In this document: positions 2,927 through 36,024 of the stretch, piece after piece
Numbering within the stretch: the stretch's first letter is position 1
Layout: each line of letters starts with the position of its first letter
Origin: Pseudoflavonifractor sp. AF19-9AC
GTDB lineage: Bacteria; Bacillota; Clostridia; Oscillospirales; Oscillospiraceae
Assembly (NCBI RefSeq): GCF_003478995.1
Contig: NZ_QUGI01000011.1
Location: 9,728-46,560 of the forward strand
Reading direction: 5' to 3'
DNA length: 36,833 nt
Translations under genes and position numbers: made by a program
The notes under the pieces: model-generated
The model's database searches: none
The model's input: only the letters and a program-made list of their open reading frames with translations
What the model was told of the DNA's origin: nothing

Positions 2927-2943
2927 TGGGACAAAGTGTCCCA
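2927..2943. repeat. Dispersed palindrome, copy 1
   Basis: TGGGACAAAGTGTCCCA, exact match to the family core with an AAG spacer. It is intergenic, 23 bp beyond the relaxase stop codon and just after the oriT-like repeats. Confidence 0.95.
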
Positions 2944-2958
2944 AGGGATAGTCTGCGG

Positions 2959-2980
2959 AACAGGCCCTAACGGGCCTGTT
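2959..2980. terminator. Hairpin over the relaxase stop codon
   Basis: AACAGGCCC (2959-2967), TAAC loop, GGGCCTGTT (2972-2980). It is a strong GC stem spanning the end of the relaxase gene. No T-run follows on the minus strand, so it may stabilise the 3' end rather than terminate. Confidence 0.45.
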
Positions 2981-4394
2981 CCTTATCGGCGCGTCCGCCG
3001 GTAAGCCCCAGAAGATGGTCAATGTTGCCCTTCACCGTGACGATCTCCCGCATCTCCTTTTGTGCGGTGCGGTATTGTGCGGTGAGGGCTTTTTTCTGTT
3101 CGGCCAGCTCCCGGCGCTTTTTCTTGAGGGCGTCCATCTTGGGGAGCTTTTCGCCGTCCAGCAGTTCATTCATGGTGGCCTTGGCCGCCCGGTAGTCAGC
3201 CAGCTCCGCCTCGTGCTGGGCCAGATACTTTTTACTGTACCGGGCCGCCTTGTAGCCATCGAAAACGGGCCGGGTCTTGGCGTACTGCACCACGGCCCCC
3301 ATGAGCTCCGACGTGCGGCCCAGCTCCCGCTCCACCGCCCGCAGCTCCCCAGCCAGAGTGTGGGCGCGATCCACCGATGTGTCCGTCTTGGCGGCAAGCT
3401 CGTCATAATCGGTCAGGCCGTTCTCCTGGAGAAATTGCAGGGCGGCGGCCATCTGCTTGATGTTGTAGACCTTGGCCCACCGCTCATAGCCAGGGCCCTT
3501 GCCCTGGGCCATGCGCTGCTGGATGTCAATAACAAGGTTGAACCGCCGCGCCTTGGGCCGGGCGTCGCCGCCGCCCCCGGCCCGAGCCGGAGCTCTGCCA
3601 TCCAGGACGGCCTGGACAGCCTCGGGGCCGTAGCCTTCCCCCAGGGTGGAGCTCCGCCAGCGGGCGGGCCGTTCAAAGCCTGGGAGCTGGAATGAGAGGA
3701 CGCCGCCCCGCCCGTGGAGCACCTGGACGCCAGCCGCCTCCAGCGCGGCGAGGAAGGCCGGGAGATCGGCAGGGGGCTGGGTCAGCACCTCGTCGATGAT
3801 GGCCCGGAGCTGCTCCTTTTGCGGGGGCCGCTTTGCGTCCCCCAGCCATTGCCCGTAGTGACGGAAGGGGCCCTGGCTGGGCAGCTTGGGATTTTGAATG
3901 ACAGACAGCTCATGCTCGATGCACACCCGGTCAGAGAGCCGCCGGAGCGCCCGCCCGGAGCGGAAGAAATCTCTATATTTCCGGGTGCAATCCAGGGAAG
4001 TGGAATTGTAATAGATGTGGTTGTGGATGTGCTGGCGGTCTGTGTGGGTGGCGACGAAAAAGGCGTGGTTGCCCTTCGTCCAGCGCATGGCCGTTTCATA
4101 GCCCACCCGGTTTGCCTCCTCGGGGGTAATCTCCCCCGGCTTGAAGGACTGGCGAATCTGATAGCAGAGCACATCCGCGTCCCGTTTCTGCTCCCGGCCC
4201 GTGACGGCCTTGTACTTGGCCTTGGACAGCAGGAACTCGGCGTCGGCTGTCATGTGGTCGCACTGGTAAGAGGAAATCAATTCCCCGCCCTGGGTCTTGT
4301 CAGGATTTTTCCCGTAGTCCAAACGGTCTTTGAGGGATTGGGCGATGGTTTCCCCCTTGCTGATGTGGTGGACAATCAGGCGCGTGGTAGCCGT
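2967..4394 (-). CDS. MobP-type relaxase of the outer ICE (apparent ACG start)
   Basis: DNA relaxase (Relaxase/VirD2 family) that nicks oriT and leads the strand into the recipient. Read from ACG at 4394 it is 475 residues. It has a conserved Tyr near residue 27 in the DYGKNP motif, the metal-binding histidines HIHNH (about 122-126), and a C-terminal coiled region with KGPGYERWAKVYNIKQMAA and VKGNIDHLLG, which the nested relaxase shares. The start is odd. Relatives begin MATTRL; here the codon in that place is ACG, 7 nt after a perfect AGGAGG (4405-4400 on the complement). No ATG or GTG is in frame upstream; only TTG codons inside the ribosome site or palindrome region are available. It lies downstream of SLOG, with palindrome copy 2 between them. 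Confidence 0.88.
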   Translation of the reverse strand, partial: TATTRLIVHHISKGETIAQSLKDRLDYGKNPDKTQGGELISSYQCDHMTADAEFLLSKAKYKAVTGREQKRDADVLCYQIRQSFKPGEITPEEANRVGYETAMRWTKGNHAFFVATHTDRQHIHNHIYYNSTSLDCTRKYRDFFRSGRALRRLSDRVCIEHELSVIQNPKLPSQGPFRHYGQWLGDAKRPPQKEQLRAIIDEVLTQPPADLPAFLAALEAAGVQVLHGRGGVLSFQLPGFERPARWRSSTLGEGYGPEAVQAVLDGRAPARAGGGGDARPKARRFNLVIDIQQRMAQGKGPGYERWAKVYNIKQMAAALQFLQENGLTDYDELAAKTDTSVDRAHTLAGELRAVERELGRTSELMGAVVQYAKTRPVFDGYKAARYSKKYLAQHEAELADYRAAKATMNELLDGEKLPKMDALKKKRRELAEQKKALTAQYRTAQKEMREIVTVKGNIDHLLGLTGGRADKEQAR

Positions 4395-4428
4395 GGCAGC
4401 ACCTCCTTTCAAACGGCAGTAGGCGGTA

Positions 4429-4445
4429 TGGGACAAAGTGTCCCA
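4429..4445. repeat. Dispersed palindrome, copy 2
   Basis: TGGGACAAAGTGTCCCA, exact, AAG spacer. It lies between the SLOG stop codon (9 bp away) and the relaxase ribosome site. Confidence 0.95.
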
Positions 4446-5429: not shown

Positions 5430-5446
5430 TGGGACACTTTGTCCCA
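5430..5446. repeat. Dispersed palindrome, copy 3
   Basis: TGGGACACTTTGTCCCA, exact, CTT spacer. It lies between the convergent ends of the XRE gene and the small Cys-rich gene, 14 bp beyond the latter's stop. Confidence 0.95.
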
Positions 5447-6015: not shown

Positions 6016-6086
6016 CCGGCTTGCCCCGGCCTGGGACATTTTGTCCCGAACTCGGGCAAGCCGGGGAGCGGCGCACCGCTCCCCGG
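6016..6086. repeat. Compound hairpins after mobC enclosing palindrome copy 4
   Basis: An 11-bp repeat CCGGCTTGCCC (6016-6026) / GGGCAAGCCGG (6054-6064) encloses palindrome copy 4. The right arm overlaps a second hairpin, CCGGGGAGCGG-CGCA-CCGCTCCCCGG (6061-6086), that starts 4 bp beyond the mobC stop. The two stems share bases, so they are mutually exclusive, as in an attenuator. That use is speculative. Confidence 0.7.
6032..6048. repeat. Dispersed palindrome, copy 4
   Basis: TGGGACATTTTGTCCCG has exact arms, a TTT spacer and a variant last base. It is 41 bp beyond the mobC stop, in the loop of a larger inverted repeat. Confidence 0.93.
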
Positions 6087-6089
6087 CCT

Positions 6090-6437
6090 TTACATTTCCA
6101 CCACCTGGGTCAGCTTTTTCAGCAGCTCGGACAGAGGGCCCCACAGGTCTGCATAGTCCTTTTGCAGCAGGGCGATGTCCTGGGGGTAGATGCCCCCGTA
6201 GGTGTTGGCCTGGATCGCCACCTGATTGAGATTGTTGGAGCACCGGCGCTGGAGCGATACCAGCTCCCGCACCGGCCCCAGGTCAACGTGGAGCACATAC
6301 CCATTGAGGGCCATCTTCCGCACGAAAGCCCCCATGTTCCGCACCCCGGCCTCGGCCATGCGCTCCTGGAGCTGTGCCAGCTCCTCCTCGGACACCATGA
6401 CGTGCAGGTGGATGGGGCGGCGGCGTTTCCGGCTCAC
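6090..6437 (-). CDS. mobC: MobC-like relaxosome accessory protein
   Basis: Protein of 115 residues that should bind oriT DNA and help the relaxase. It opens with a basic stretch (SRKRRRPIHLHV), then a ribbon-helix-helix-like segment (SEEELAQLQERMAEAG). The typical MobC motif SNNLNQVAIQANTYG follows, and a coiled C-terminus. The start is GTG at 6437, 9 nt after GGGAGGAG. The GTGA at 6437-6434 overlaps the upstream gene's stop, so translation is coupled. The compound hairpin region follows its end. Confidence 0.82.
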   Translation of the reverse strand: MSRKRRRPIHLHVMVSEEELAQLQERMAEAGVRNMGAFVRKMALNGYVLHVDLGPVRELVSLQRRCSNNLNQVAIQANTYGGIYPQDIALLQKDYADLWGPLSELLKKLTQVVEM

Positions 6438-7390
6438 CGGGACGGCTCCTCCCGTTCCCGCCGGGCAAAGGGCTGGAGCCGGACGGGGCTCTGGCCGTCC
6501 TCCGTGCGCAGGAAGTCTATTCTGCCTGCCGCGAAGATGGCGTTTCGGTTGAGCTGCCGCTGCCACGCCCCCTGGCTGGGGGCCCACTTGAATCCGTTGT
6601 GTTTCATCTCCTGGCGCTGCTCCTCGGTGGGCTTTTCGTCAAAGAACAGCTGCAGTCGGTTTTCCCCCTCGTTGATCTCCGCCCTGCCGCCGGGGAACTC
6701 CCAGCCCACGAAGTCGCCCCGGTTTTTCAAATCGTCAATGCGCTGCTGCACTCGGCGGATGTTGGCGTTGTTGTTGGAGAGATGGAAAGAGGGATAGGGC
6801 ACTGGGTCTTTCCGCCAATCCCGCTCCATAGAGGCCCGGAGCTTGGCGATCCCCTCGTCGGTCAGGCCGGGGCAGCCCTCCAGGGTCTTGTGTTTGCGAT
6901 AGTAGGCGTTGACTGCCTTCATGTGCTCCTGGTCGGCCTTCAGCCCCTCCAGCTTGGCCTCCAGCTTTTCCACCGCCTGCCGGTCATCGGCGGAGATGCC
7001 CGCCGTGCCGGTGGAGCGAATTTTGTCCAGCAGGCCCTGGATATGCTGATACTCACCCATATTCTTGTCCCGCGCCGCGTTCTGCTTGTGCTTTTTCTGC
7101 ACGGGGAAGTTGGAGCCCCCGGCAACCAGGATCGAGGGCACACGGGCGTCGATGGCATGGGCCTGATTGAGATTTTCCGCCAGCTTGCGGGCATAGAGGT
7201 CGGCCAGATAGTCAATCTTCTCATGGTACATGGGATCGACTTTCTGTTTCTGTTCCTCCGCCAGTTGGTAGGCGGCATCTACCTGAGCCTGATAACTGGC
7301 GGTGGCGGAACCGGGCTTGTAGTCACGGTAGCTGTTGAGGTCGTTTGCCCGCCGCGCTGCCTCTTCACTGATGGGATAATACTTCGGCAT
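6434..7390 (-). CDS. Conserved ICE protein of unknown function
   Basis: Protein of 318 residues, mainly helical and charged. The N-terminal part (YYPISEEAARRANDLNSYRDY) and a C-terminal segment, GFKWAPSQGAWQRQLNRNA (about residues 268-286), resemble proteins found beside MobC in Clostridia conjugative elements. The C-terminal GFxWxPxxxxWxR pattern recalls the DUF3560-like families. I cannot assign a function. The ATG at 7390 follows GGGGGTGG. It begins 12 bp after the preceding gene and ends in a GTGA overlap with mobC, so it probably belongs to the same transcript and may serve DNA processing. Confidence 0.7.
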   Translation of the reverse strand: MPKYYPISEEAARRANDLNSYRDYKPGSATASYQAQVDAAYQLAEEQKQKVDPMYHEKIDYLADLYARKLAENLNQAHAIDARVPSILVAGGSNFPVQKKHKQNAARDKNMGEYQHIQGLLDKIRSTGTAGISADDRQAVEKLEAKLEGLKADQEHMKAVNAYYRKHKTLEGCPGLTDEGIAKLRASMERDWRKDPVPYPSFHLSNNNANIRRVQQRIDDLKNRGDFVGWEFPGGRAEINEGENRLQLFFDEKPTEEQRQEMKHNGFKWAPSQGAWQRQLNRNAIFAAGRIDFLRTEDGQSPVRLQPFARREREEPSR

Positions 7391-8217: not shown

Positions 8218-8234
8218 TGGGACAAAATGTCCCA
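8218..8234. repeat. Dispersed palindrome, copy 5
   Basis: TGGGACAAAATGTCCCA has exact arms and an AAA spacer. It is intergenic, about 20 bp upstream of the ribosome site of the 7402-8187 gene and 119 bp beyond the VLP gene's stop. Confidence 0.94.
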
Positions 8235-8899: not shown

Positions 8900-9685
8900 T
8901 CAATTATTTTCCTCCGTTTCCTCCTCGTCGCCGTATTCATCCTCCCCATAGGGGTCATAGTCCTCCGACTCCTCATAGGGATCGGGCTCGTCGTAGTCCT
9001 CCTCGGCCTGGGCTGCTCGCTCCTGCTTGGGACGGTAAATCTTGAAATACCACCCGGCACCGCCGCAAATCACCACCGCGGCCAGCACCATCGCCAGCAG
9101 CCCCAGGGAGCCGCCCCCGGCCTCGGCCTCCGGTTCGGGATCTTCCGCAGGCTCCGGCTCCGGTTCGGGCTCCGGCTCCACCCCCGCGCACTCGGTCATG
9201 TTGGTGGCGCAGACGGGGCAATCCGTGTTGACGGCCCCCGCCGCACACTTCTCCGTGCAGGAGCAGGCGGGCAGCTCCCCGCCAGCGGCCTCAAACGCGG
9301 CCAGCAGGTCGGCCTCGTCCACTACCCCTAAAAAGTAGGTTTCATACTGTTCGCCCTCCTCGTCCACGGGCTTATCGTAATCAATGACGATGTAGAAGGT
9401 GCTGCCGCCGCTGGTCTGGACAGTGATAAACTGCTTGTTGGTGTGCTTGTCATAGAGCAGGTCGCGGGTCACAAGATTGCCCTCTTCCGAAAAGCCCTCG
9501 CCTGGCTCCAGAGTAGGCTCCGGCGTGGGGGCCTCCTCCACGGTGGTGTCCTCGACGGTGGCGGCGGGGTCGGTTTCCTCATAGCCCCCGGTGGGCTCGT
9601 CCGAGTAGGCATAGGCCGGGGCGGTCATGCCGCACAGCAAAAAGGCGGCGCACAGCGCCGCCATCAGGACACGGTATTTTTTCAT
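8900..9685 (-). CDS. DUF4366-family membrane-anchored surface protein
   Basis: Extracellular protein of 261 residues. The signal peptide covers residues 1-26 (cleavage after APAYA). An acidic, Pro/Glu-rich linker follows, then a folded domain (about 70-135) and a cysteine-rich segment with CSCTEKC and CPVCATNMTEC. Next come a Glu-Pro repeat, one membrane helix (GSLGLLAMVLAAVVICGG) and a short, very acidic cytoplasmic tail. DUF4366 proteins sit beside DUF4315 in many Clostridia conjugation modules and are thought to be part of the transfer machinery at the cell surface. The start ATGA overlaps the stop of DUF4315, so the two are coupled. Confidence 0.82.
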   Translation of the reverse strand: MKKYRVLMAALCAAFLLCGMTAPAYAYSDEPTGGYEETDPAATVEDTTVEEAPTPEPTLEPGEGFSEEGNLVTRDLLYDKHTNKQFITVQTSGGSTFYIVIDYDKPVDEEGEQYETYFLGVVDEADLLAAFEAAGGELPACSCTEKCAAGAVNTDCPVCATNMTECAGVEPEPEPEPEPAEDPEPEAEAGGGSLGLLAMVLAAVVICGGAGWYFKIYRPKQERAAQAEEDYDEPDPYEESEDYDPYGEDEYGDEEETEENN

Positions 9686-9945
9686 TCAGACACTTCCTCC
9701 TCGTCAGGTTTGGGGGCGTCCTTTGGGACACTTTGTCCCATAGGAGCGCCGGAGCGGATGGCCTGGAGCAGCACCGGCAGCTCGTCCAGGGTGATGCTCA
9801 GGCCCCGCACAATGTCCACGATCTCGGTATTTTCCGCCTCCAGCTTTTTCTGCTCCAGCTCCTTCAGCCGGGCCTGCTGTTCGCTGATCTTGGCCTTGAC
9901 CTTTTCAATTTCGGCTTGGATTTTCGCGCTTTTGCTGGTTGCCAT
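9682..9945 (-). CDS. DUF4315-family coiled-coil protein
   Basis: Protein of 87 residues. Residues 1-45 form a charged coiled coil (AKIQAEIEKVKAKISEQQ and LKELEQKKLEAEN), followed by a short helical domain (IVDIVRGLSITLDELPVLLQAI). The family is a regular part of Clostridia conjugation operons; its role is unknown. The ATG at 9945 follows GGAGGTTTTAC. Palindrome copy 6 lies inside the gene and is translated as MGQSVP in the C-terminal tail, after the conserved domain. Confidence 0.82.
   Translation of the reverse strand: MATSKSAKIQAEIEKVKAKISEQQARLKELEQKKLEAENTEIVDIVRGLSITLDELPVLLQAIRSGAPMGQSVPKDAPKPDEEEVSE
9724..9740. repeat. Dispersed palindrome, copy 6 (inside DUF4315 gene)
   Basis: TGGGACACTTTGTCCCA, exact, CTT spacer. 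On the coding strand it is read as M-G-Q-S-V-P in a disordered C-terminal tail. Confidence 0.95.
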
Positions 9946-9964: not shown

Positions 9965-12157
9965 TCAGGGTAAACGGCCATAGGCATATAGGTGAGATTG
10001 CCAATAGCTCGTGTTCAAATTTGCGTAGCCGATGGGATCGCCCGCGTGGAGCATCATCCCGTCGCCCAGGTAGAGCCCACAGTGGGAGATGCCCGTGGTG
10101 TCGTAGGTTCCCACGAAGAAAACCAGATCGCCGGGCTTGGGGTTGCTGGTGGGGGTGCAGTAGTTGTAAAGGCCGGTGGCCCCCAGGCGGCCCACATTCC
10201 AGCCGCACTGGTTGAGCACCCAGGACAGGTAGCCGGAGCAATCAAAGGACGTGGCCGGAGAGCTGCCGCCCCACACATAGGGATAGCCCACATATTTCTC
10301 CGCCTCGGTGAGCAGGGCGGCAAACTGCTCGTCGCTCAAATACTCGGTGGGGACTTCATAGCGGTCCACGGGCTGGGTGTACTTGTCCACATAGCCGGAG
10401 CCAGGGAACAGGTCAGGCCGGTTTCCCAGGGACGCCATGTAGAGGGCGTACCGCGCCATCTGCTCCTCGCCCATCATGTAGATGGGCAGATGGGACAGGT
10501 TGAAGTTCTCCAGGGTCACATAGCAGATATAGTAATCATAGGGCACCTGTGTCGTGGTCGTTTCTCCGGTTTCCGGGTCGGTGGATGTTTCCGTCCGGTA
10601 GCGGGTTTCCACCACCACTTTCTCGGTGAGAATGTACTGGCGGTCAAAGAGGTCGGCCAGCGTACCCTCCACGTCGGCCAATGTCCATTCCCCCTCGTGG
10701 AGCGCGGACAGGATGGAGATGAGCACATAGGGGTCGTGCCCGATCTCGTCCAGGTCGAAGTGGTACTCGTCATAGCTGTGGGTGGCGGTGTAGTTGTCCA
10801 GATAGGCTTGCAGCTCCGCCTCCATGTCGCAGTAGGCCGCCTCCGCCGCCAGAATGTCCTCGTCCTTGGCGGCATAGGTGGTGGCCCCGATGCCGCCGCC
10901 CGCGCCGCTGCCCAGGGGGGCCAGGGCCGAGGTGCAGGACTGGAACAGGAACACGATGAGCAGGCAGGCCAGGGCCAGCAGCACCCCCACGGGATGGCGT
11001 TTGATAAAGCCCACCGTCCGGGCGGCCAGCTTTTCCGTGGTGACTGCCGTTTTCCTGGCCGCCGCCGCGCCGTACTTGGCCGCCTCCTTTGCACGTTTGC
11101 AGTACTGCTGTTTCAGCCTCCGCTTGTATAGAAAGCGTTTCCAGGCGTTCATAGCCAGCTCGGGCTGTTCCTGAGCGGCCCGGTGGAGATGGTAATTTGC
11201 CGTGGCCTTGGTGAACCTGGACTGCGCCCGCCGGACGGCCTTGGCCGGGTGTTCCCGGATTTTGCGTCTGGCAAAGCGGTACAGTTTCCGGCCCCCGGCC
11301 TCCGCCGCCAGCTCGGAGCGGTGGGCCCCCTCGATGCCTACATTCTCATGCTCATTCTCATAAATCTTGCTGTGGACAAAGCCGTGGGCCGTCCACCCGG
11401 CGGCCCCGGCGATCTTCCGCACCGGCCCTTTGGGTTTGGGTGGTTTCTGCTTTGCCAGCTTGTCCCTGGCCTTGTCCAGCTTGGCCTCCCGTTTTTCCAT
11501 GCGGAATTTTGCGCGGTTGACCTGTTCAGAATTGCTCTCCGTGCGGAATTTCCCGCCGCCGTCCCTTGGGACACTTTGTCCCATAGGGTCAGCGCCCCCG
11601 GCACCCTGGGAAGGGCCGGGCCCCCGGCCAGCAGGCCGGGGGCCCTTGGGAGCCGCCTTGCCCGGCTGGGAGCCGGGGGCGGCGTCCTCGTCCTCAAAGC
11701 GCAGGCGGGCCGCCGGGCCCTCCCGGAGAGAGGCACGCTCCGGCCCACGGGGGGCCGGGGCCTCCCGTGTATCGTCCGGGGGCTCCCCATGCTCCGCCGG
11801 GGGCACCGACTCCGCCGCCCGGTCAGGGGGAAACAGGTCTGCCCGGCCCTCCAGCGGGTCGGGGCGGCCCGCGTTTTCCGGCACCGCCCCAACCTCGGAC
11901 GCGGGCTGGTGGCCGTCCCCCTGGGGCGCAGCCTCCACCCGGCGCTCCGGCTCCGCCGGGGCCGGGGCCTCCCGCACCTTCCGGGCGGACGCCTTTTTCC
12001 AATCCGGGCGGCGCTGCTTGGGTGTATCCACCTTGGGCTCCCGTTCCGGCCCAAACCGTAAGGGGTCAGAGAGCTTGCCCGCCTGCTCCTGGTCGGAGAT
12101 TAAACGAGAGGCCGGGTCTTTCCTGGGCTCCCGGCCCCCGTCAAGTTCCCGGCTCAT
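9965..12157 (-). CDS. CD1108-type conjugation protein with NlpC/P60 peptidase domain
   Basis: Protein of 730 residues that probably opens the peptidoglycan for the transfer channel. Residues 1-200 are disordered, rich in Pro, Arg and Glu. A basic helical region (about 205-385) follows, then one membrane helix (388-406) and an extracellular middle domain. The C-terminal C40 peptidase (about 615-730) has YPYVWGG, catalytic Cys640 in FDCSGY, His692 in SHCGLYLGDG and His704. The N-terminal half should stay in the cytoplasm. Palindrome copy 7 lies in the disordered region as MGQSVP (192-197). The ATG at 12157 overlaps the end of virB4 by 17 bp. Confidence 0.88.
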   Translation of the reverse strand: MSRELDGGREPRKDPASRLISDQEQAGKLSDPLRFGPEREPKVDTPKQRRPDWKKASARKVREAPAPAEPERRVEAAPQGDGHQPASEVGAVPENAGRPDPLEGRADLFPPDRAAESVPPAEHGEPPDDTREAPAPRGPERASLREGPAARLRFEDEDAAPGSQPGKAAPKGPRPAGRGPGPSQGAGGADPMGQSVPRDGGGKFRTESNSEQVNRAKFRMEKREAKLDKARDKLAKQKPPKPKGPVRKIAGAAGWTAHGFVHSKIYENEHENVGIEGAHRSELAAEAGGRKLYRFARRKIREHPAKAVRRAQSRFTKATANYHLHRAAQEQPELAMNAWKRFLYKRRLKQQYCKRAKEAAKYGAAAARKTAVTTEKLAARTVGFIKRHPVGVLLALACLLIVFLFQSCTSALAPLGSGAGGGIGATTYAAKDEDILAAEAAYCDMEAELQAYLDNYTATHSYDEYHFDLDEIGHDPYVLISILSALHEGEWTLADVEGTLADLFDRQYILTEKVVVETRYRTETSTDPETGETTTTQVPYDYYICYVTLENFNLSHLPIYMMGEEQMARYALYMASLGNRPDLFPGSGYVDKYTQPVDRYEVPTEYLSDEQFAALLTEAEKYVGYPYVWGGSSPATSFDCSGYLSWVLNQCGWNVGRLGATGLYNYCTPTSNPKPGDLVFFVGTYDTTGISHCGLYLGDGMMLHAGDPIGYANLNTSYWQSHLYAYGRLP
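11567..11583. repeat. Dispersed palindrome, copy 7 (inside CD1108 gene)
   Basis: TGGGACACTTTGTCCCA, exact, CTT spacer. It is read as M-G-Q-S-V-P in the disordered N-terminal region of the hydrolase. Confidence 0.95.
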
Positions 12158-14862: not shown

Positions 14863-15442
14863 CGTCCTTAGAAATTGCCGCAGCCGGGCCCCCTTGGGAC
14901 AAAGTGTCCCATAGGCTCGCCGAGGGCTCCACCTCGTTGCCCCACACGTCCCAGCCGGGGGGAGATTGCCGGGCGAACAGCTCCACACGGGGCACGTCCC
15001 CCATGAGGGCCACGATCTTCTCCCGGGCCTCGTCCGGTTTCCGGCTGTGCTCCCGGATGGGGGAGATGATGAACTGGTGGACGTTGGCCGCCTGCCGTTT
15101 CGGGTGTCCCCGCGTTGCCAGCAGGCACACCTCCGCGTTGCCCCGCGTCCAAAAGCCCAGGCCGTAGAACCAGCCCCCGGCCTTGCGGTTTTGTTTCAGC
15201 CAGACAAAGGCCACAGTCTTGTAGACAAAGCCCCAGGCCCGGATGAGCCGCAGGGCCTCCGGGAGCTGGGGGAACGTGGCCCACAAAAAAAGCGCGCTGT
15301 CTGGGGCGGCCAGTTCCGCCACCGGGAGCGCGCACAGCTCGTCAATGCTCATGGTGGGATAGTGCTGCTCCGCCGCCCCCTGCAAGCCCTTTTGGGCGTA
15401 GCGCCACGGGGGATCGGCGTAAATCACAGGATATTGTCTGAT
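14855..15442 (-). CDS. MT-A70-family DNA adenine methyltransferase (apparent ATC start)
   Basis: Putative N6-adenine methyltransferase, about 195 residues. The catalytic motif DPPW lies near the start (VIYADPPWRYAQKG), with LFLWATFPQLPEALRLIRAWGF and the C-terminal GWDVWGNE typical of MT-A70 enzymes. Relatives begin a few residues before VIYADPPW. Here those codons follow the upstream stop directly, and the best-placed initiator is ATC (15442), 8 nt after AAGGAG. The GTG at 15427, just before IYADPPW, is the fallback but has no ribosome site. Palindrome copy 8 lies in the C-terminal tail (WDTLSQ). No restriction enzyme is nearby, so it may protect the transferred DNA. Confidence 0.82.
   Translation of the reverse strand: MRQYPVIYADPPWRYAQKGLQGAAEQHYPTMSIDELCALPVAELAAPDSALFLWATFPQLPEALRLIRAWGFVYKTVAFVWLKQNRKAGGWFYGLGFWTRGNAEVCLLATRGHPKRQAANVHQFIISPIREHSRKPDEAREKIVALMGDVPRVELFARQSPPGWDVWGNEVEPSASLWDTLSQGGPAAAISKDGD
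14895..14911. repeat. Dispersed palindrome, copy 8 (inside MT-A70 gene)
   Basis: TGGGACAAAGTGTCCCA, exact, AAG spacer. It is read as W-D-T-L-S-Q in the tail beyond the conserved domain, in a different frame from copies 6 and 7. Confidence 0.95.
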
Positions 15443-23758: not shown

Positions 23759-23868
23759 GGTAAAACCTCCTTTCTGTGCGTGGTGTCCTCTCACTAATAG
23801 GAGAAAAACGGGGTGTGAAGCGGAACTGTTTTTGAAAAATCCGAAAAAATATTTTGAAGGATTTTTAA

Positions 23869-23913
23869 GCGGCGCAAGCCGCATAAGCAGGGTTTGGGGA
23901 AGGCACTCCCCAA
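23869..23913. other. oriT: Putative oriT of the nested element
   Basis: A hairpin GCGGC-GCAA-GCCGC (23869-23882) is followed by TTGGGGA (23894-23900) and TCCCCAA (23907-23913). Read on the complement it gives TTGTTGGGGA...TCCCCAAACCC, the same motif as in the outer ICE (2896-2919). It lies about 110 bp upstream of mobC. Confidence 0.6.
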
Positions 23914-24288
23914 CAAGATTCCCGCAGGGGCAAAATGAGCGAAAAGCGAATTTTGGTACTGCGGTAGAATCTTGCTCTAAAAAACTACCGCTTTCCTCGG
24001 CGGCTCTGGTTTGCGGATATACTGGCTTGCTCCACCAATATAGCGATTGCGGCGGCGTGTTCTGCCCGCTGTTCACCACTACAACGGTGAAAAGGGGGCG
24101 TTTTGGCAAACGCAGCGAAAATTTTTTTATTTTCCCTGTCTGCTCCCTACAACAATCCGGCGGTGTGGTTTGCCAAAGATTTTTGAAAATGGGCGCAAAA
24201 AAAGCAGTAAACCTTTTCAAGATTTACTGCTTATCTTCCGCTGTGATGGGCGGCGGTATTAAATTGTCAGCCGTTTTTCAAATGGAAT
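23914..24288. other. Non-coding stretch upstream of the nested oriT
   Basis: No gene is supported on either strand. Open frames here lack ribosome sites. The region should contain the promoter of the mobC-relaxase pair and the 3' flank of the cargo gene at 24289. Base composition drops towards AT to the right. Confidence 0.4.
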
Positions 24289-24699
24289 TTATCTGCAATC
24301 GCTTTCTTTCCGCTTTCCAATTCCTTTTCTGTAATCTTCCATAATCCTAACGCAATGATCTGCTATCTTTTGCATTCCGAGTTCTTCAAAAAAGGCAATT
24401 TGTATTTTCATCAGTTCTTCACAAACAGTCAACTTCTGCTCATCCATATTGCTAATAGCAAGCCATGGGAACGCTTTATATTTCTTAGTGTCCCCAATGA
24501 GAAAATTGTACCCTATCAACTCATTTTCACGGAAAACGAAATAGAATTGTGGGCCTGAACCTGGAACTGACTTTTCCATAATTTGCTGCATTGTTCTCAC
24601 GCCGCCGTATGCCGGAAAAAAACCTATTCGCTCAAGAGCATTTAATATGTCAATCCTTTTATCTGTGGGTATGTCTCTATAATTGATAATCTGTTCCAT
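24289..24699 (-). CDS. Unknown cargo protein, AT-rich
   Basis: Protein of 136 residues that I cannot assign. It starts MEQIINYRDIPTDKRIDILN and has a middle part, FYFVFRENELIGYNFLIGDT, whose beta pattern resembles acetyltransferase (GNAT-like) folds, followed by a helical end. The ATG at 24699 has AGGG about 9 nt upstream; an ATG at 24714 has no ribosome site. The gene is more AT-rich than its neighbours, so it probably came from another source. It stands alone between the mobilisation and sigma-factor genes. Confidence 0.55.
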   Translation of the reverse strand: MEQIINYRDIPTDKRIDILNALERIGFFPAYGGVRTMQQIMEKSVPGSGPQFYFVFRENELIGYNFLIGDTKKYKAFPWLAISNMDEQKLTVCEELMKIQIAFFEELGMQKIADHCVRIMEDYRKGIGKRKESDCR

Positions 24700-24756
24700 T
24701 TGCTCTACCCTCATTGAAGTTTAATTTGTCAGGCTCTAATTATACAACTTTTCTGT

Positions 24757-24954
24757 TTAGCGGTCAAAGCGGAACTTCAACAGGCTTTCTATCAGTTGCC
24801 TGACGATATGCTCCTGCATATCCGTGTTAATCTGTCCGTCCATTTTCGCACAAGAGCGGACATATCCCGCATAATGGGATAGGACGGCGGCAACAGCTTC
24901 CGGGTCGCCCTCGCTTGCCTTAACGATTGTCTCATAGGGAAGTAGCTGGCTCAT
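24757..24954 (-). CDS. Small helix-turn-helix-type element protein
   Basis: Protein of 65 residues (MSQLLPYETIVKASEGDPEA ... LIESLLKFRFDR), of the Tn916 ORF8-like kind that regularly follows the small sigma factor in Bacillota elements. It is annotated elsewhere as helix-turn-helix domain; function unknown. The ATG at 24954 lies inside the sigma-factor gene (23-bp overlap), so the two are expressed together. Confidence 0.7.
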   Translation of the reverse strand: MSQLLPYETIVKASEGDPEAVAAVLSHYAGYVRSCAKMDGQINTDMQEHIVRQLIESLLKFRFDR

Positions 24955-25390
24955 AGGACAAACCCTCCAACTCTGCCCGTAGCCGCCGTAAAATCATCTG
25001 AATACGCCGCCCGGTTGTGTTGCCAGCCCGTCCATATCTCCGTCCAATCTCCCTATGCGTCAATCGTTGGAAGTAGTACAAGAAAATGATTTCCTGTTCC
25101 ATCTGTGATAGTGCGGACAGGGCTGCGGCAAGCTCTGGACTTTCCAAAAGCACCATCTGACCACAGACGAAAAGCGGATAGCTGGTCATGCCGGATTGCT
25201 CCGCAAAGTATTTATCTGTGGTACTGAATGGATAGTGTTTTTCTTCTATCAGATATTCAAGCGAGATTTCCCGCTTGCGGCGGCTCCGTATGCTCCGGGC
25301 TGCGTCTATGGCAGCGTGGCGAATAACAGTCTTGCAAAAGGCATCGTGTGTATGCCGGATATGTTCTTGATACTTTTCGTGTTCGGTCAT
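24932..25390 (-). CDS. Element-type sigma-70 family factor
   Basis: Protein of 152 residues. The C-terminal region 4 helix-turn-helix is clear (ALSALSQMEQEIIFLYYFQR, then LTHREIGRRYGRAGNTTGRR). The N-terminal part is shorter than in ECF factors, as in the ORF7-like sigma factors of Tn916 relatives, which control transfer genes. The ATG at 25390 follows AAAGGGGGATTTTCC. It is the first gene of a pair with the 65-residue protein. Confidence 0.82.
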   Translation of the reverse strand: MTEHEKYQEHIRHTHDAFCKTVIRHAAIDAARSIRSRRKREISLEYLIEEKHYPFSTTDKYFAEQSGMTSYPLFVCGQMVLLESPELAAALSALSQMEQEIIFLYYFQRLTHREIGRRYGRAGNTTGRRIQMILRRLRAELEGLSYEPATSL

Positions 25391-25480
25391 GGAAAATCCC
25401 CCTTTCTGAATAATGGCAGAGGGCGGCAGCATCTTGTGCTGTCGCCCTCTTGATTACCGAACAGCAAAGACGGGCGGGGC

Positions 25481-25524
25481 TGTCAACGGCGGCGCATTTG
25501 CGCCGTTCATCTTGACCGTTGACA
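25481..25524. repeat. Cruciform-forming inverted repeat between sigma operons
   Basis: Outer arms TGTCAACGG (25481-25489) and CCGTTGACA (25516-25524) enclose a perfect GGCGCA-TT-TGCGCC hairpin (25491-25504). It sits 24 bp beyond the anti-sigma stop and upstream of the next sigma gene, so it could be a terminator or an operator. No T-run is seen. Confidence 0.7.
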
Positions 25525-25548
25525 GGCTCGGCTGGGTTTGCTATCTGC

Positions 25549-26253
25549 TCACGGCAATTCACTCTCATTGATAGGAATTGCCTCAAGTTCCGTATTCAAA
25601 TTGTTCCAATAAGAGCCGATATCCGCACTTGTGAAATACTTAAAACCGCCTGCTGCTGACTTCAATTCGCCGTTTTTAACCCCATAGCAGGCGTAAATCA
25701 AATCGTAGCTTGTTCCATCTGAGAGGTTAAATCTAAAGCTGGTCACATCTGCTCCGGCAGTTTCCTCAGTCGTTTTGTCTTTTAGGGATAAGCCCTTGAA
25801 CTTATCATACAGGGTCTTTATATCATTTTCAGCAACAACTACTTTCTTTTCTGCTGATTCAGGCACTCCGTCATAGTGGTACATTTCAACGTTTTCGACA
25901 TCTTCAACCTCAAATGGGAAGTCGATTTTGACAGGCTCATAAGCAATGTTTATAGGTAACAGAAAGAGAGCTGTAAAAATTGCAATGATACAAAGAGCGA
26001 TGGAAACGAGAACAGCAATCGTTATCTTTTTTCTGCCTCTCTGCTTTTCTTTTGCCTCATGGCGCATAATAACGCTTTCGCTTTCTTCGTGAAGAACATC
26101 TTCGCTCGTGTGAGAAAGCAATTTCTGATAAATTGCGTTACAGTCAGCACAGGCGTTCAAATGCTCTTTTACCATCTCTGCGCTTGCTTCGCTGCAAGCA
26201 CCGTCAACATACAGCGGAAGAATATCTCGAACAATATCGCATTGTTTACTCAT
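25549..26253 (-). CDS. Zinc-finger anti-sigma factor with membrane anchor
   Basis: Protein of 234 residues, probable anti-sigma partner of the ECF factor encoded just upstream. The N-terminal zf-HC2 domain has CSEASAEMVKEHLNACADC (His and two Cys near residues 32-42). A membrane helix follows (ITIAVLVSIALCIIAIFTAL, about 78-100), then an extracellular domain of about 130 residues with no recognised family. The start ATGAGTAA overlaps the sigma stop, so translation is coupled. AAGGA lies 8 nt before. An ATG 9 bp upstream is possible. No target operon is beside it. Confidence 0.82.
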   Translation of the reverse strand: MSKQCDIVRDILPLYVDGACSEASAEMVKEHLNACADCNAIYQKLLSHTSEDVLHEESESVIMRHEAKEKQRGRKKITIAVLVSIALCIIAIFTALFLLPINIAYEPVKIDFPFEVEDVENVEMYHYDGVPESAEKKVVVAENDIKTLYDKFKGLSLKDKTTEETAGADVTSFRFNLSDGTSYDLIYACYGVKNGELKSAAGGFKYFTSADIGSYWNNLNTELEAIPINESELP

Positions 26254-26731
26254 GCTTTTCATCCATCCTTTCTTGAATTTTTAGCTTTGCACGATGATAA
26301 GTAACTCTCGCCCATGATTCTGTTTTTCCAAAAATTGCAGCGATTTGTGAAAAAGATAGTTCCCCGAATACGCGAAGCTGAAAGACTTCTTTGTATGGTT
26401 CTTCCAAACGGTGAAGAACGAGGTGTATGCGGAACGCCATGTCAGAATCTGCAACTGAGTTCTCAACATTTTCATTTGATGGCAAGTCATTGATTTCACT
26501 CACATCAGCTACTCGCTGACGGCTTCGCATTTCATCATGGTAAAGGTTTTTTGCTATGGAGCAGAGCCATGTCAATTCATCTGACTTACCTTTGAATTGT
26601 GATGTTGTAGAAACAGCCTTATAGAATGTGTTCTGCGTGATTTCCTCTGCTATCTCACGATTTTTGGCAAGAGAAATAGTATACGAGTATACCTGTAAAT
26701 AGTAGGCTTTATAGAGCTTTTCATAGTCCAT
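26246..26731 (-). CDS. ECF-type sigma factor
   Basis: Sigma factor of 161 residues. Region 2 (YSYTISLAKNREIAEEITQN, then TFYKAV and WLCSIAKNLYHDEMR) and region 4 (LEEPYKEVFQLRVFGELSFS, then QIAAIFGKTESWARVTYHRA) are complete. It is the usual partner of a zf-HC2 anti-sigma factor, encoded next with an overlap. I chose the ATG at 26731 (MDYEKLYK), 11 nt after AGGAGG; an ATG at 26740 lies too close to that site. The pair is AT-rich and may be cargo of the nested element. Confidence 0.85.
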   Translation of the reverse strand: MDYEKLYKAYYLQVYSYTISLAKNREIAEEITQNTFYKAVSTTSQFKGKSDELTWLCSIAKNLYHDEMRSRQRVADVSEINDLPSNENVENSVADSDMAFRIHLVLHRLEEPYKEVFQLRVFGELSFSQIAAIFGKTESWARVTYHRAKLKIQERMDEKHE

Positions 26732-27019
26732 ACTTGTCATCACCTCCTTCAGCTTCATAGGTTAGACGGAGAAATCGGAATTTCGTTACAAAGAAGTTTG
26801 AAATTTTTATACCTTTACGCTACTCTTGCTTTCTGCGGACTATTGGTAGACGCGCATTAACGGCAAGCAAAGAGATTGCTGTGTCAGCTTGATATGTTCA
26901 AATGCTAATTAAGTATAGCATACAGCTATGAATTTTTCTATTGCGTTCCCCTGACTTCGGAATAGTGGCAGGACTGGCTGTCTTTGTTTTGCTTTGTGCT
27001 TCTCTACCGTACATGAGCA
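26732..27019. other. Right end region of the nested element
   Basis: No gene is supported. It holds the promoter region of the sigma-factor gene and the right attachment arm, CGTACAT at 27008-27014, next to the TT core. Confidence 0.5.
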
Positions 27020-27144
27020 TTGGAGCCGGGATTGTCGGAACCATAACCTTCCAGCAGGTTCACGACGCCCCACACGCCAAGGCCAGCGCCCAGGGCCACA
27101 ACAAGAGTCTGCAAAGTAGTGATTGCGGAACTGAAAAACTGCAT
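27020..27144 (-). pseudogene. maff2 gene, 5' part (interrupted by the nested element)
   Basis: First 41 codons of a Maff2-family small membrane protein: MQFFSSAITTLQTLVVALGA, then GLGVWGVVNLLEGYGSDNPG and S. The ATG at 27144 follows GGAGGTTTT. At 27020 the sequence runs into the nested element and reads five foreign residues before a stop at 27004. The missing 29 codons are at 17692-17781. Maff2 genes normally lie between virD4 and the VirB6-like gene, exactly where this one was. Its role in transfer is not established. Confidence 0.9.
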
Positions 27145-27210
27145 AAAACCTCCATTCTCCGGGGATTGCCCGGCCATAAAATAAACCGCCGTTTCCGGCG
27201 GCGGGTGGTA

Positions 27211-27227
27211 TGGGACACTTTGTCCCA
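27211..27227. repeat. Dispersed palindrome, copy 10
   Basis: TGGGACACTTTGTCCCA, exact, CTT spacer. It lies between the VirD4 stop (24 bp away) and the maff2 ribosome site. Confidence 0.95.
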
Positions 27228-29578: not shown

Positions 29579-29595
29579 TGGGACAAAGTGTCCCA
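29579..29595. repeat. Dispersed palindrome, copy 11
   Basis: TGGGACAAAGTGTCCCA, exact, AAG spacer. It is 5 bp beyond the ArdA stop and just before the PcfB ribosome site. Confidence 0.95.
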
Positions 29596-30933: not shown

Positions 30934-30950
30934 TGGGACAAAGTGTCTCA
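30934..30950. repeat. Dispersed palindrome, copy 12 (one mismatch)
   Basis: TGGGACAAAGTGTCTCA, AAG spacer with one arm mismatch. It is 7 bp beyond the SLH gene's stop. Confidence 0.88.
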
Positions 30951-30957: not shown

Positions 30958-33900
30958 TTATTTCTCCTGCCAGACCTCGGGATCGCCGGACACGTCCGCC
31001 TCGTGGTGGTTGGACGCCTCCAGAATGTCATAGTAGGCCCAATGGCCGCTGGACACGTCCGGGAACCGCACCAGCCCACGGGGGCCGCTGGCGATATAGT
31101 CCTGGTCGGCCTCGCGCCCCAGCAGGCGGTTGACGATGGTAACGACTTCAGCGCGGGAGATTTCATCCTCCGGCTGGAACGTGCCGTCCCCATAGCCTAC
31201 CACCCAGCCGTGCCGGGCGGCGTCCTCGATGTACCCAGCCGCCCAATGGCCGGGGGACACATCCCAAAAGTCCTGGTAGTCCTCCATGATCTCCTGGTCG
31301 CCGTCCCCGTAGGCGTCGAAGAACCGAACCGCCATCGCGGTGAACTCGGCGCGGGAAATGGGCTCGTCCCCGTGGAACAGGCCGTCGGTGTAGCCCACGG
31401 CGATGCCGTAGCGGGTCAGGTAGGACACATACCCGGCGTACCATGCGTCGGGGGACACGTCCGGGAAAGTGGCCGTCGTGGGGGCGGAGATGGGTTCGCC
31501 CAGGCGCTGGGAAAGCAGGCGGGCAAAGATGGTGGCCGCCTCGCTGCGGCGCATACTCCGGCCCGGCCCAAAGGTGCCGTCGGTATAGCCCACCACATAG
31601 GCCCCGTGGGTCTCCAGCTCCGCCACCTCGGGCACGGTGAGCTGGCCCGCCTCATCGGTTTCGCCGCTTTCCCGCTGGCCCAGGTCGCCCTTCACGATGA
31701 CGGAAAGACCCTCCTGGGGCTGGCGCTCATGGTCGGTAACGGTGACGGTGATACGGTTGGCCTCGTCCATGTCCTCGCCGTCCGGCAGGGTGACAGTGAT
31801 ATTGCCCGTGGAGCCGATGGAGATACCGGCGTCAGGTATGGGACGTTTTGTCTCATAGTCCTCCACCTTCACGGTGAGGGTGTGGCGGTTGCCGTCGGCG
31901 TCCTCCCAGCCCACGGTGCCCTTGCCGTCCTCATTGGTGGAATCCGAGCCGCCGGGGACAGTGAGCTGCCCGGCGGAATCCGTCTTGCCGCTGCTGGAAT
32001 TGCCGTTGCGGTCAGTGACGGCGATGCCCATACCTACCACCGGGGACTCGTCCTTGACGAGCTGGACGCGGATGGTGGTCTGGTCGGCGTAGTCCAGCAG
32101 GCGGCCAGAGGGCAGCCGGATGGACAGGGACTCATCCGCGTGGAGCGTGACGGTGGCCCCGGCCACGGGATTTTTGGTATCGGTGTCGCTGACCGTCACC
32201 AGATAGCCGCCCACAATGGCCTCGCCGTGTTCGTCCGTGGTGGATTGATTGTAGATTTTCTCGATTTCCTCAGTTTCCAGCGTTTCCCCGCAGACCTCGC
32301 ACTCCTTATGCCGGGAACCTTCGGAATCTGTGGTGGGCTCCTTGTCCACGATCCAGTCGCTGGGGGTGTGGCCGGTGGGGTCGGTATAGTCCCCCTCATA
32401 GCTGTCCCCGCAGCGGGAGCAGGTGTAGGTGGTATGGCCCATGCCCTCGCAGGTGGGCGCGATCACTTCCTCCTGGTAGTCGTGGCCCAGGGCGTTGGCA
32501 ATCACGGCCCCGCACTTCTCGCAAAGCTGGGGCTCGGTGCAGGTAGCGGGAGCGCCGGGCACATGGCCCGCCGCCGCATCGCCCTCCAGACGGGTGGCCC
32601 CGCAGCGGACACAAGTGTACTCGGTCATACCCTCGCCGGTGCAGGTGGCATCGGTGATTTCCTTGCCCTCGTCCCAGCTATGGCCCAGGGGGTCGGTGTA
32701 GTCCGTGATAAAGCTGGAGCCGCAGCCCTCACAGAGATGGATGGTCTTGCCGCCGCCCTCACAGGTGGCCGGGGTGGTCTTGCTCACATAGTTGTGGGCC
32801 AGGGCCGGGGTGATGTCCTCGATATGGCGCTCCCCGCAGACCGCGCACTCCCGCAGGGTGTAGCCGGGGCTGGTGCAGGTTGCGGAGATGGTGGAAATAG
32901 AGAACTCATGCTCCCCCTGGGGGATGGAGGTCTCCTTGGTATCGCCGCACCGCTGGCAGATGTCCAGGGTCTTGCCGGGCACCTCGCAGGTGGCCTCCCG
33001 GATGACGGAACTCTGGTAGGCGTGGCCCAAGGCCGCCTCATAGTCCCGCTTTTCAATCATGCCGCACTCCACACAGAGATAGCGGTCATAGCCCAGGGTC
33101 AGGCAGGTGGGGTCTACGCTATCCAGCAACGTCCAGTTGTGGTTCTCGCCGCAACCCTTGTCCTCGCAACAGCAGCCGTCACAATCCGGGTCTTGGCAGC
33201 CGCAGTCGGGATTGCCACAGCCGCAGGAGCAGGAGCCGTCCTCGGTGGTGGTTTCGTCACGGAGATGTACAAAGGCCACGCCGTCCTCCACCATATTGGT
33301 GTCCTTAAAGGTGTAGGTGATTTCATAATACACGGGATAATCCCCCGCCTCCGTGTAGTTGGGGGCCGAAGTCAGGGTGCAGGAGCCCGCCTCGTTGCCG
33401 TAGCGGATGGCGGTGGTAACGCCCGCGTCGGAGAGGTCTGACACGGTGACGGTGTGGGGCTGGCCGTCCACCACGCCGAAGTAGTCCGCCACGACGCTCT
33501 TTGCGGCGGTGTAGGCGGTTTCGGAATAGCCGCAATCGGCGCAGGTGTCCATTTCCACAAAGCGGTCATGGGCCAGCTCCGGGCGGATACTGCCCTCCAT
33601 GTGGTGGCGCTCCAAGGTGGAATTTTCCTCCTTGAACGTGCCATAGCAGAACGCGCAATACTCCCCGCTGGTAGTGGTGACGTGGTGATACTCGCTGTCC
33701 ACCTGCTCGATGGCCTGCGTTTCCGGCAGTTCCTCAAAGAAATCCGCTGCGCAGTCATAGAGCCAATACACATTTTTACCACAGGAGTAATTGGTGGCCC
33801 CCATGTTGGTATTGAACGTGCCGCAAGTCTGGCACACCGCTTTCGTCCAGTGGTAGCCGGTGTAGTAGGCATCCTTGCCGGGGGTGCCGTCCAGCAGGTC

Positions 33901-34227: not shown

Positions 34228-34268
34228 AATCGCACCTCCTAATATAATGTAGAAATGAAAAAAGCCCT

Positions 34269-34285
34269 TGGGACAAAGTGTCCCA
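34269..34285. repeat. Dispersed palindrome, copy 14
   Basis: TGGGACAAAGTGTCCCA, exact, AAG spacer. It is 5 bp beyond the parB stop and upstream of the SLH ribosome site. Confidence 0.95.
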
Positions 34286-34290
34286 AAGGC

Positions 34291-36024
34291 TTACTTCTCC
34301 AGTCCCGCCTTCTTCTCGGGCGGTTGCTTTTCCTTCCACTCGTCCAGCAGGGCCATGATCTGATCCTTCATCTGCCGGGGTGTGACTTCCTTGCCGAAAT
34401 ACTTATTGAGTTCCTCTGTGCTGATAATCACTTGATCGACCTCCTTCTTTTCCTCACTTAAAATCCCATCAATGACATCTCCGTTGAGCAGGCCCTTTTC
34501 ATCCAGCTCACGGAGCTTTTTGGCCTGAGATACAGAGGGGGACGCCTGCTCCCCCTCAATGGACACCGCGATGAGCCGCTGGTTTTTGGGCCGGATATAG
34601 GATAGCTCCACAGCGGGGGTAAAGCCGATTTTCTTTGCAGGCTTGCCGTCCGCGTTCATCGCAGTGCCGTCCACCATATCTTTCAGTTCCTGTACCAAGT
34701 AGTTCAAGCGGATCAGCCGTATGACCTTTTTATAATTCAGGCCGTTTCGTGCTCCCACAATTTCCGTTGACCGCTTTCCAATATCGCCCTTGGCAACATT
34801 TTGGAGTTTAACCCCCCGGTGGGAAATGGCATCCACCTGCTGTTGGAGTGCTTTGGCTTTCTCCGTGGGGAGGATATGATCCCGGTGCCGCAGGTTATCG
34901 TCTGTCATGGCGAGAATGGCCTCGTCATCCGTCATTTCACGGACAATGCAGGGCATATTCCGAAAACCGGCCAGCTCACTGGCCTTCTGGCGGCGGTGGC
35001 CCGCGATGATCTCATAGCCGCCACCCTCACGGGGACGGACAAGGGCGGGCTGGTTCACGCCGCCGGTCTTGACGCTCTCCACCAGGGATTGCATCTCCGT
35101 ATCCTCCCGCACCTTGAAAGGGTGATCCTTAAAGGCGTGAAGCTCAGAGAGGTCAAGGTAAACAACCTCCTCCTTGGTAGCGCGGGTAGCGTCCTTCAGC
35201 CCAAAGGCGGCCTCTACATCTGCGGTAGGGGTATCCACCTCAACAGCAGGAGCACCGGCGGCAGCGCCGCCCCCGGGAGTGTCCCGCTCAGGGGCAGCCT
35301 TGCCGCGCTTGCCTCGGGACACTTTGTCCCGAACCTTGCCCGATGGATCATCCTTATCCTGAGTGGCCTCCTTGGGCTTACGGCCACCACGGCGGGGCTT
35401 GTCCGCCTTTTCCTCATGCTCCGGTCTTTTCTCCTTGGGGGGACGGTTCTGGCGCTTGGGGGCAGGCTCCTCCTGGGCCGGTTCCTCCGGGCTCTTGTCC
35501 ATACCTTCTGGCTGTGGAGTGGCGGCCTTCTCCTGCTCGATGGCCGCCCGCGCCTCCTGGTTGCGCTTGGAGATGAGTTCGCTGATTTGCTCAAAGGACA
35601 CTACTACCTCGCCCTCCTCGCCGGGGGCAGGGGGCTCCGGCTCAGGTTCAACCATAGCGGAATCACCAGCAGCGGGCTCCGCCGGTTCCGGCTGCTCCGG
35701 CTCCGAGATGTCAACTTGGGGCGGAGTGTCCCCACCGGGGGCCTCCAGCACAGGTTCAGCCACAGCGGGCTCGTCAACGGCGGCATCCGCCACTTCCGGC
35801 TGTTCCGGCTCCGGGCCGTCCACCTGGGGTGGGGCGTCCCCGTCGGGGGCCTCCGGCTCAGGTTCAGCCACAGCGGGATCACCAGCAGCGGGCTCCGCCG
35901 GTTCTACCACTTCCGGCTCCGGGGCAGCGGCCTCGGGCGAGGTGTCCACGGCGGCCTGTTCCATGACCTCGGGCTCGGCGGCATTGACCTCCTCCGTGCC
36001 GCCATTCACTTTTTCGTCTGCCAT
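34291..36024 (-). CDS. parB: ParB/Spo0J-family DNA-binding protein with long acidic N-terminus
   Basis: Protein of 577 residues. Residues 1-285 are disordered: an acidic Pro/Glu-rich region with 36-residue repeats, then a basic stretch (about 185-245). The ParB domain (about 287-375) has DLSELHAFKDHPF and the CTP-binding AGHRRQKAS (341-349). A helix-turn-helix region follows (about 395-450: VGARNGLNYKKVIRLIRLNY). Such proteins partition DNA or, as with KorB of RK2, act as global repressors. No parA gene is visible beside it. It is the first gene of the visible ICE operon. The ATG at 36024 follows GAGGAGGAATTGA. Palindrome copy 15 lies in the basic linker. Confidence 0.88.
   Translation of the reverse strand: MADEKVNGGTEEVNAAEPEVMEQAAVDTSPEAAAPEPEVVEPAEPAAGDPAVAEPEPEAPDGDAPPQVDGPEPEQPEVADAAVDEPAVAEPVLEAPGGDTPPQVDISEPEQPEPAEPAAGDSAMVEPEPEPPAPGEEGEVVVSFEQISELISKRNQEARAAIEQEKAATPQPEGMDKSPEEPAQEEPAPKRQNRPPKEKRPEHEEKADKPRRGGRKPKEATQDKDDPSGKVRDKVSRGKRGKAAPERDTPGGGAAAGAPAVEVDTPTADVEAAFGLKDATRATKEEVVYLDLSELHAFKDHPFKVREDTEMQSLVESVKTGGVNQPALVRPREGGGYEIIAGHRRQKASELAGFRNMPCIVREMTDDEAILAMTDDNLRHRDHILPTEKAKALQQQVDAISHRGVKLQNVAKGDIGKRSTEIVGARNGLNYKKVIRLIRLNYLVQELKDMVDGTAMNADGKPAKKIGFTPAVELSYIRPKNQRLIAVSIEGEQASPSVSQAKKLRELDEKGLLNGDVIDGILSEEKKEVDQVIISTEELNKYFGKEVTPRQMKDQIMALLDEWKEKQPPEKKAGLEK
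35315..35331. repeat. Dispersed palindrome, copy 15 (inside parB)
   Basis: CGGGACACTTTGTCCCG has exact arms, CTT spacer and matched C/G outer bases. It is read as R-D-K-V-S-R in the basic linker, a third reading frame among the in-gene copies. Confidence 0.94.
35625..35877 (-). repeat. 108-bp tandem repeats in parB
   Basis: About 2.4 copies of a 36-codon unit, each beginning PAVAEP (or SAMVEP) and containing GDxPPQVD and EPEQPE. They are at 35877-35770, 35769-35662 and a partial third unit. They encode the acidic disordered N-terminus of ParB and may vary in copy number. Confidence 0.8.

Follow-up and report, generated by a model that had tools for sequence, protein, structure and literature searches.

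A stretch of 36,833 nucleotides from Pseudoflavonifractor sp. AF19-9AC (contig NZ_QUGI01000011.1, positions 9,728 to 46,560; hereafter the window) carries an integrative and conjugative element (ICE) along which the palindrome TGGGACA-N3-TGTCCCA recurs at dispersed sites. We consider these palindromes to be loading sites for the element's own ParB protein, which would be loaded along the element and for which no ParA partner was found nearby; we put the probability of this reading at roughly 0.8. It is based on the observation that whole site arrays have switched type at matching positions while residues 418 and 431 of ParB follow bases 1 and 4 of the site, and on a test of base 1 in held-out genes together with the same residues and the same cores in distant, short ParB proteins. 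In addition, it draws on the location of one site within parB and another right after it, a model of the helix-turn-helix (HTH) domain, the ParB fold, the even spacing of the sites and the lack of a nearby ParA. Judging from sequence comparison, ParB almost certainly reads these sites.

Palindromes, site types and layout

Allowing up to 3 mismatches, TGGGACANNNTGTCCCA matches the window at 19 places, against a mean of 1.93 and a maximum of 5 in shuffled sequences, and GGGACA/TGTCCC is the commonest inverted repeat with 6+6 arms found in the window. The 15 sites named in a preliminary description of this DNA were all recovered at their places with 0 to 2 mismatches to TGGGACA-N3-TGTCCCA, the remaining four matches having 3; they span positions 2927-35331. 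Our count of exact GGGACA/TGTCCC arms agrees with the 13 copies claimed, and the printed sites have the spacers AAG/CTT in 12 and AAA/TTT in three cases, as described. The flanks do extend the symmetry to a palindrome of about 25 bp, but the CCTWT flank given for it is a lineage variant, relatives having roughly RCTTYGGGACA-N3-TGTCCCRAAGY. The features of parB and the sites (the latter without strand) are:

34291-36024, minus strand: parB, encoding a ParB_N protein of 577 amino acids with a disordered N-terminal extension and an HTH (PF02195, E 1.3e-17)
34699-34773, minus strand: parB codons 418-442, from R418, the putative specificity residue, through the predicted recognition helix beginning at Y431 (coordinates computed from residue numbers)
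35315-35331: site inside parB (N-terminal extension), 2 mismatches
34269-34285: site just 3' of the parB stop, terminator-like by itself, exact
31839-31855: site within the SLH-protein gene, 2 mismatches
30934-30950: site 3' of the SLH-protein gene, 1 mismatch (GAGACA half)
29579-29595: site 3' of ardA, exact
27211-27227: site 3' of the coupling-protein gene, exact
16211-16227: site where the N6_N4 methyltransferase gene starts, 3' of the SpoVG-like gene, exact
14895-14911: site at the 3' end of the MT-A70 gene, exact
11567-11583: site within the NlpC/P60 (CD1108-type) gene, exact
9724-9740: site close to the end of the open reading frame (ORF) 9682-9945, exact
8218-8234: site at the 5' end of the DarA_C ORF, exact
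6032-6048: site downstream of ORF 6434-7390, 1 mismatch
5430-5446: site between ORF 6434-7390 and the YpsA-like gene, exact
4429-4445: site between the YpsA-like and relaxase genes, exact
2927-2943: site 3' of the relaxase gene, exact

The preliminary description knew of no family with this sequence and had not tied the sites to the parB gene that contains one of them; they belong to the ParB/parS kind. The protein has a ParB_N (CTPase-fold) domain (PF02195, 64.1 bits versus a cut-off of 26.3; TIGR00180 above cut-off), in which G342-H343-R344-R345 is invariant across 13 sequences and conforms to GxRR, the nucleotide motif of ParB. In the structural model both the N-domain and the HTH fold are present, the predicted fold matches structures of Noc, ParB-parS and KorB, and residue 418 is placed on the first HTH helix and residue 431 at the start of the recognition helix. 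Long ParBs of this kind have an N-terminal extension rich in proline and charge. RGRP, KGRP or RGRK motifs, which resemble AT-hooks, occur in 36 of 40 such extensions and are absent from the window's ParB and three ParBs of type C, a site type defined below.

Relatives of the element were gathered via VirB4, which yielded 80 loci of other genomes, mostly Bacillota; the commensal Roseburia inulinivorans DSM 16841 (L033) is one of the carriers. The majority carry the same palindrome (type A) at positions conserved relative to VirB4, and loci without a GGGACA array have, at corresponding places, an array built in the same way with TGGACA (type B) or GGGCCA (type C); a fourth type, U, has TGG[C/T]CA. 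The tally is 56 A, 12 B, 5 C, 4 U and 3 untyped loci, the last being short contigs (L024, L030, L036) dropped before the counts. In the VirB4 tree (77 rows including the window; L071 is missing) the four types need three changes, the minimum possible, and type B forms one clade, joined to the small type A clade of the window with a Shimodaira-Hasegawa-like approximate likelihood ratio (SH-aLRT) support of 93. Hybrid A/B sites, three in B loci and one in A loci, are what conversion site by site would leave. Related ICEs keep their site positions even after a switch of type, and the lack of conservation that the preliminary description had named as speaking against its view did not occur. Its statement that the sites have no orientation bias is right for the core and wrong for a GAGACA half-site, which across type A loci stands on the 5' side of the coding strand 82 times and on the other side once. 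This half-site is found mostly in type A sites near parB (in the window at 30934-30950); speculatively, it may be a weaker, autoregulatory variant of the site. At one locus (L028:2207-3332) a stop divides parB into two open frames, and the site array is still there.

The confinement of the sites to the ICE was borne out. Exact GGGACA palindromes number 8, 8, 8, 15 and 9 in five whole genomes, with 43 of the 48 in the home element (type A); the five outside copies all belong to one genome (G012), where four are on a different contig and the fifth lies about 16 kb upstream of parB. Of the exact TGGACA palindromes (type B) in two genomes, the element contains 14 of 15 and 11 of 12 (25 of 27 together). 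An equal density across the host chromosome, the other outcome that would have spoken against the preliminary description, was not seen in the genomes searched whole. When neighbourhoods were joined to 55-74 kb, the first site (up to 1 mismatch) lay within parB in three genomes (G001, G003, G008) and preceded it by 0.1 kb in G017; the site before parB is 0.9 kb away in G010 and about 16 kb away in G012. The last site of G001 lies within a serine recombinase gene adjoining the host gene for diaminopimelate (DAP) epimerase. Among 566 sites from 72 sources, 46% are situated 0-60 nt past a stop codon (5.5% for random positions) and 20% inside gene bodies (67% for random positions). Their spacing is more even than expected by chance, with a median gap of 1505 bp and a coefficient of variation (CV) of 0.43 versus 0.85 (56 loci), and also more even than random choices of gene ends (CV 0.42 versus 0.71; 54 loci). 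The sites extend along the entire element, dispersed like the operators of KorB, and are not clustered near parAB as in ParABS systems.

Covariation of ParB residues and site bases

Arg at residue 418 accompanies G1, and Leu accompanies T1; at residue 431, Tyr accompanies A4 and Val C4. This tracking of bases 1 and 4 holds in ParBs of type A (25), B (9) and C (6). The U lineage combines both changes in the protein (Leu and Val) and in the site (T1 and C/T4). Site letters and ParB residues vary together as expected of direct reading, and this covariation points to the HTH as the part of the protein that would read the palindrome.

Within one class, 75 of the 391 genomes searched contain ParB relatives at E up to 1e-60, mostly about 300 amino acids long. 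A larger set of 7,998 scored candidates includes 3,208 relatives at E up to 1e-40. Nearly all short ParBs fetched (L161-L187, L208-L267) have a private palindrome of the same build just before the HTH, inside parB, and the many different cores among those of Clostridia elements make up a large natural set of ParB-site pairs. Two distant short ParBs with R and Y-K (L178 and L231) have GGGACA, and one with L and Y-K (L249) has TGGACA like type B. Aligned short ParBs suggested rules for base 1, namely R-G, Q-A, E-C and L/N/K/S-T, W at residue 418 being mixed in this discovery set and given no rule. These rules were recorded before 60 further ParB genes were fetched, 40 and 20 from two search lists, taken roughly in list order and thus not at random.

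Of the 60 held-out genes, 59 have a palindrome in which 9 or more of the 11 pairs match. Fourteen were left out owing to a gap at 418 or a missing site, and 12 because their residue (T, G or A) had no rule; among the latter, T stood with base T seven times and with G twice, G with T/G twice and A with G once. In the 34 genes covered by a rule, base 1 was predicted correctly in both arms 31 times, in one arm twice and wrongly once, and after removal of near-duplicates (n=28) the respective numbers were 25, two and one. Left arms fit the rules in 27 of these 28 genes, compared with 22 in the best of 100,000 permutations.

Short and long ParBs also differ in their company. We searched six genomes for PF13614 ParA proteins and found none within 30 kb of nine long ParBs (the window's own surroundings lay outside this search), while one adjoins six of the seven short ParBs scoring over 100 bits in the same genomes, the exception being G012:C47:2973-3794. 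No array was detected around short ParBs at any of 20 loci, some with surroundings of just 4-6 kb; in 15 of the 16 of these loci tested, there is exactly one copy of the own core, inside parB. This contrast indicates that arrays accompany the absence of ParA. ParB relatives are also encoded on a plasmid of E. faecalis and on a Subdoligranulum circle; neither has a family of at least 3 exact copies, and the circle has three sites with up to 1 mismatch around its parB.

Proposed mechanism and alternative explanations

We propose that a ParB dimer would read the half-site GGGACA with its HTH, residue 418 being matched to base 1, and Y431 and its neighbours, where the recognition helix starts, to base 4 and adjacent bases. 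By homology, the dimer would load at each palindrome, bind cytidine triphosphate (CTP), close as a clamp and slide; by analogy with its relatives, such CTP clamp behaviour is quite probable. Loading sites every 1.5 kb or so would keep the whole element covered, and KorB is described to reach promoters up to 1.5 kb distant by a sliding clamp (PMC11790492), which is close to the median gap here. One protein could in this way act on all transfer genes via sites along the whole element, a control like that of KorB on plasmid RK2. By the same analogy, element-wide regulation of the transfer genes is the likeliest role, with a little less than an even chance against all others. A more comprehensive proposal, which in our judgement could just as easily be wrong as right, is that a widespread family of Bacillota ICEs encodes a ParA-less ParB, mostly with AT-hook-like tails, forming an evenly loaded sliding-clamp coat that silences or organises the element; it would have arisen from a single-site ParABS module by loss of ParA and scattering of the site from within parB to most gene junctions, and whole arrays would have been re-tuned site by site with the protein, a simple residue-base code making many orthogonal pairs predictable.

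Several observations weigh against the loading-site reading or its extension to regulation. Not two but 26 alignment columns separate the types, and each of the types A, B, C and U is in essence a single clade, so that the pattern in the long ParBs alone could reflect ancestry. CD1107 and DarA_C, candidates for other readers of the sites, also differ between types A and B, with median identities of 42% and 47% between types versus 57% and 73% within A. The rules have exceptions (R stands with T/C in L261 and I with G in L187, W is mixed, and T has G in 2 of 9 cases), and by our reading those for the helix start held only partly: for (K/R)NQ, xTCCCA was right in both arms in 10 of 17 and in one arm in 2 genes, with Y-K fitting in 2 of 2, D-T in 2 of 3, G-R-Q in 4 of 5 and V-K-Q in one arm of its one gene. 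In addition, the sites are at gene ends and not at demonstrated promoters, and silencing is only inferred.

The frequent position of sites shortly past stop codons, and the terminator-like appearance of site 34269 by itself, would suit RNA hairpins or transcription terminators between genes. Imperfect pairs on the coding strand are, however, about as often G.U (394) as A.C (390), pair 7 is A.C 82 times versus G.U twice, and TTTTT follows 20 of 646 sites versus 19 of 646 random places; in view of these pair statistics and chance-level T-runs we reject such elements and give them next to no weight. The same is true of mobile palindromic repeats without a role. Repeats of the repetitive extragenic palindromic (REP) or miniature inverted-repeat transposable element (MITE) type are typically dispersed palindromes at gene ends, but those described here are nearly absent outside the elements, keep their positions across lineages while their specificity changes, and have letters that track ParB residues; confinement and conserved positions thus disfavour a mobile repeat. 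Superinfection immunity or incompatibility by site type appears improbable, although protein and all sites switch jointly, like the repressor and stoperators of mycobacteriophages (PMC6550527, PMC9283540), and five genomes (G003, G006, G008, G014 and G015) each contain ParB loci of more than one type. The same type occurs twice in seven of the eight genomes with two typed VirB4 loci, and strict immunity by type is therefore unsupported despite these five genomes.

Two further alternatives retain ParB as the protein reading the sites. In one, the array is a spread-out centromere, at which a multi-site ParB segregates the excised, replicating element with a ParA supplied by the host or by a different element. 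Membership in the ParB family fits this function, and since the short ParBs belong to ParA-ParB pairs with a single site inside parB, the array probably descends from a partition system. Partition is nevertheless unlikely to be the present role of the array, given that no PF13614 ParA was found within 30 kb of the nine long ParBs, whereas one adjoins six of seven short ones, and that an even spread across all genes would be unnecessary. In the other, ParB coats and compacts the DNA, recruits host condensin or protects the element, and leaves promoters untouched. The even coverage by sites and the AT-hook-like motifs in 36 of 40 long-ParB extensions favour such DNA organisation, but the motifs are absent from the window's own ParB, and KorB does not condense DNA in vitro according to the extracts of PMC11790492, which counts against this reading as well; we consider it about as doubtful as the centromere.

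The element and its relation to known systems

The outer element is conjugative, with its genes on the minus strand: ParB_N protein, SLH protein, DUF7768, ArdA, DUF3801, coupling protein, TrbL, SpoVG-like protein, two methyltransferases, VirB4, CD1108/NlpC-P60, CD1107, DarA_C, YpsA-like protein and relaxase; the window stops 0.8 kb past parB. A nested mobilizable element (serine recombinase, IstB-like protein, relaxase, NikA-like protein) lies in the site-free interval 16227-27211, and the region 17872-26758 between trbL and the coupling-protein gene holds it together with sigma/anti-sigma-like genes. The preliminary description had noted that this element lacks copies, and indeed no site with up to 2 mismatches occurs between 16227 and 27211, nor before 2927; the absence of any sites is consistent with later arrival of the nested region. 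Rfam at gathering scores and tRNA scans gave no matches in the window. Among viral contigs, seven (L089, L103, L093, L082, L094, L091, L086) show 3-6 dispersed similar palindromes, mostly GTGGGACA-N3-TGTCCCAC, possibly arrays of another regulator, and another (L081:3758-3838) has four similar tandem palindromes 22 bp apart, resembling an operator or centromere cluster.

With these results an unexplained dispersed repeat gains a cognate protein and a readable code, and the arrays allow delimiting and typing of such ICEs. The many natural ParB-site pairs offer a way to ask how about 15 sites and a protein change jointly without losing function, and predictable pairs could provide orthogonal DNA-labelling or clamp systems. 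The kind of protein (ParB) and dispersed operators (KorB) are already known. In our searches of an open-licence library we found no description of an evenly spaced, ICE-wide array of ParB sites without ParA, with concerted switches and a predictive code, and the matches listed for the literal palindrome arms were unrelated papers. A survey of the ParB fold reports orphan ParBs on mobile elements, but an even, ParA-less ICE array with concerted switches is not described in its extracts (PMC12704722).

Among the closest known systems, the single-site ParABS modules have the same ParB family, site architecture and residue-base code and differ in their length of about 300 amino acids, in the ParA beside six of seven and in the one site in 15 of 16. 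Noc is a chromosomal cell-division protein whose sites are not on a mobile element (extracts of PMC7383237). BisD, a ParB-like CTP protein that controls gene expression, is likewise carried by ICEs, those of Pseudomonas (extracts of PMC12704722, PMC7423338). The partition specificities of related conjugative elements have diversified, as here, in the ParR groups of Clostridium perfringens plasmids; these are, however, ParMRC and not ParB systems and have no element-wide array in the extracts of PMC9426499. The stoperators of Cluster A mycobacteriophages are also many, dispersed, mostly intergenic and change with their regulator, but they are asymmetric sites of an unrelated monomeric repressor (extracts of PMC9283540, PMC6550527). 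The asymmetric, transcription-oriented site of the L5 type was not found here, where palindromes are read by ParB in all probability, though the GAGACA half-site is oriented in a subset. The dispersed operators (OB) of KorB on the IncP plasmid RK2 are another close parallel: they too are served by a ParB-family protein, which has a ParA partner, IncC, and a further partner, KorA, according to the extracts of PMC11790492, whereas here no ParA was found nearby and KorA-like proteins were not searched for. Compared with these operators, the core sequence differs, the array is even and element-long, and the hosts are Bacillota ICEs; our results suggest that the transfer modules of a large family of gut-Bacillota ICEs may be under a ParB clamp, as those of RK2 are under KorB.

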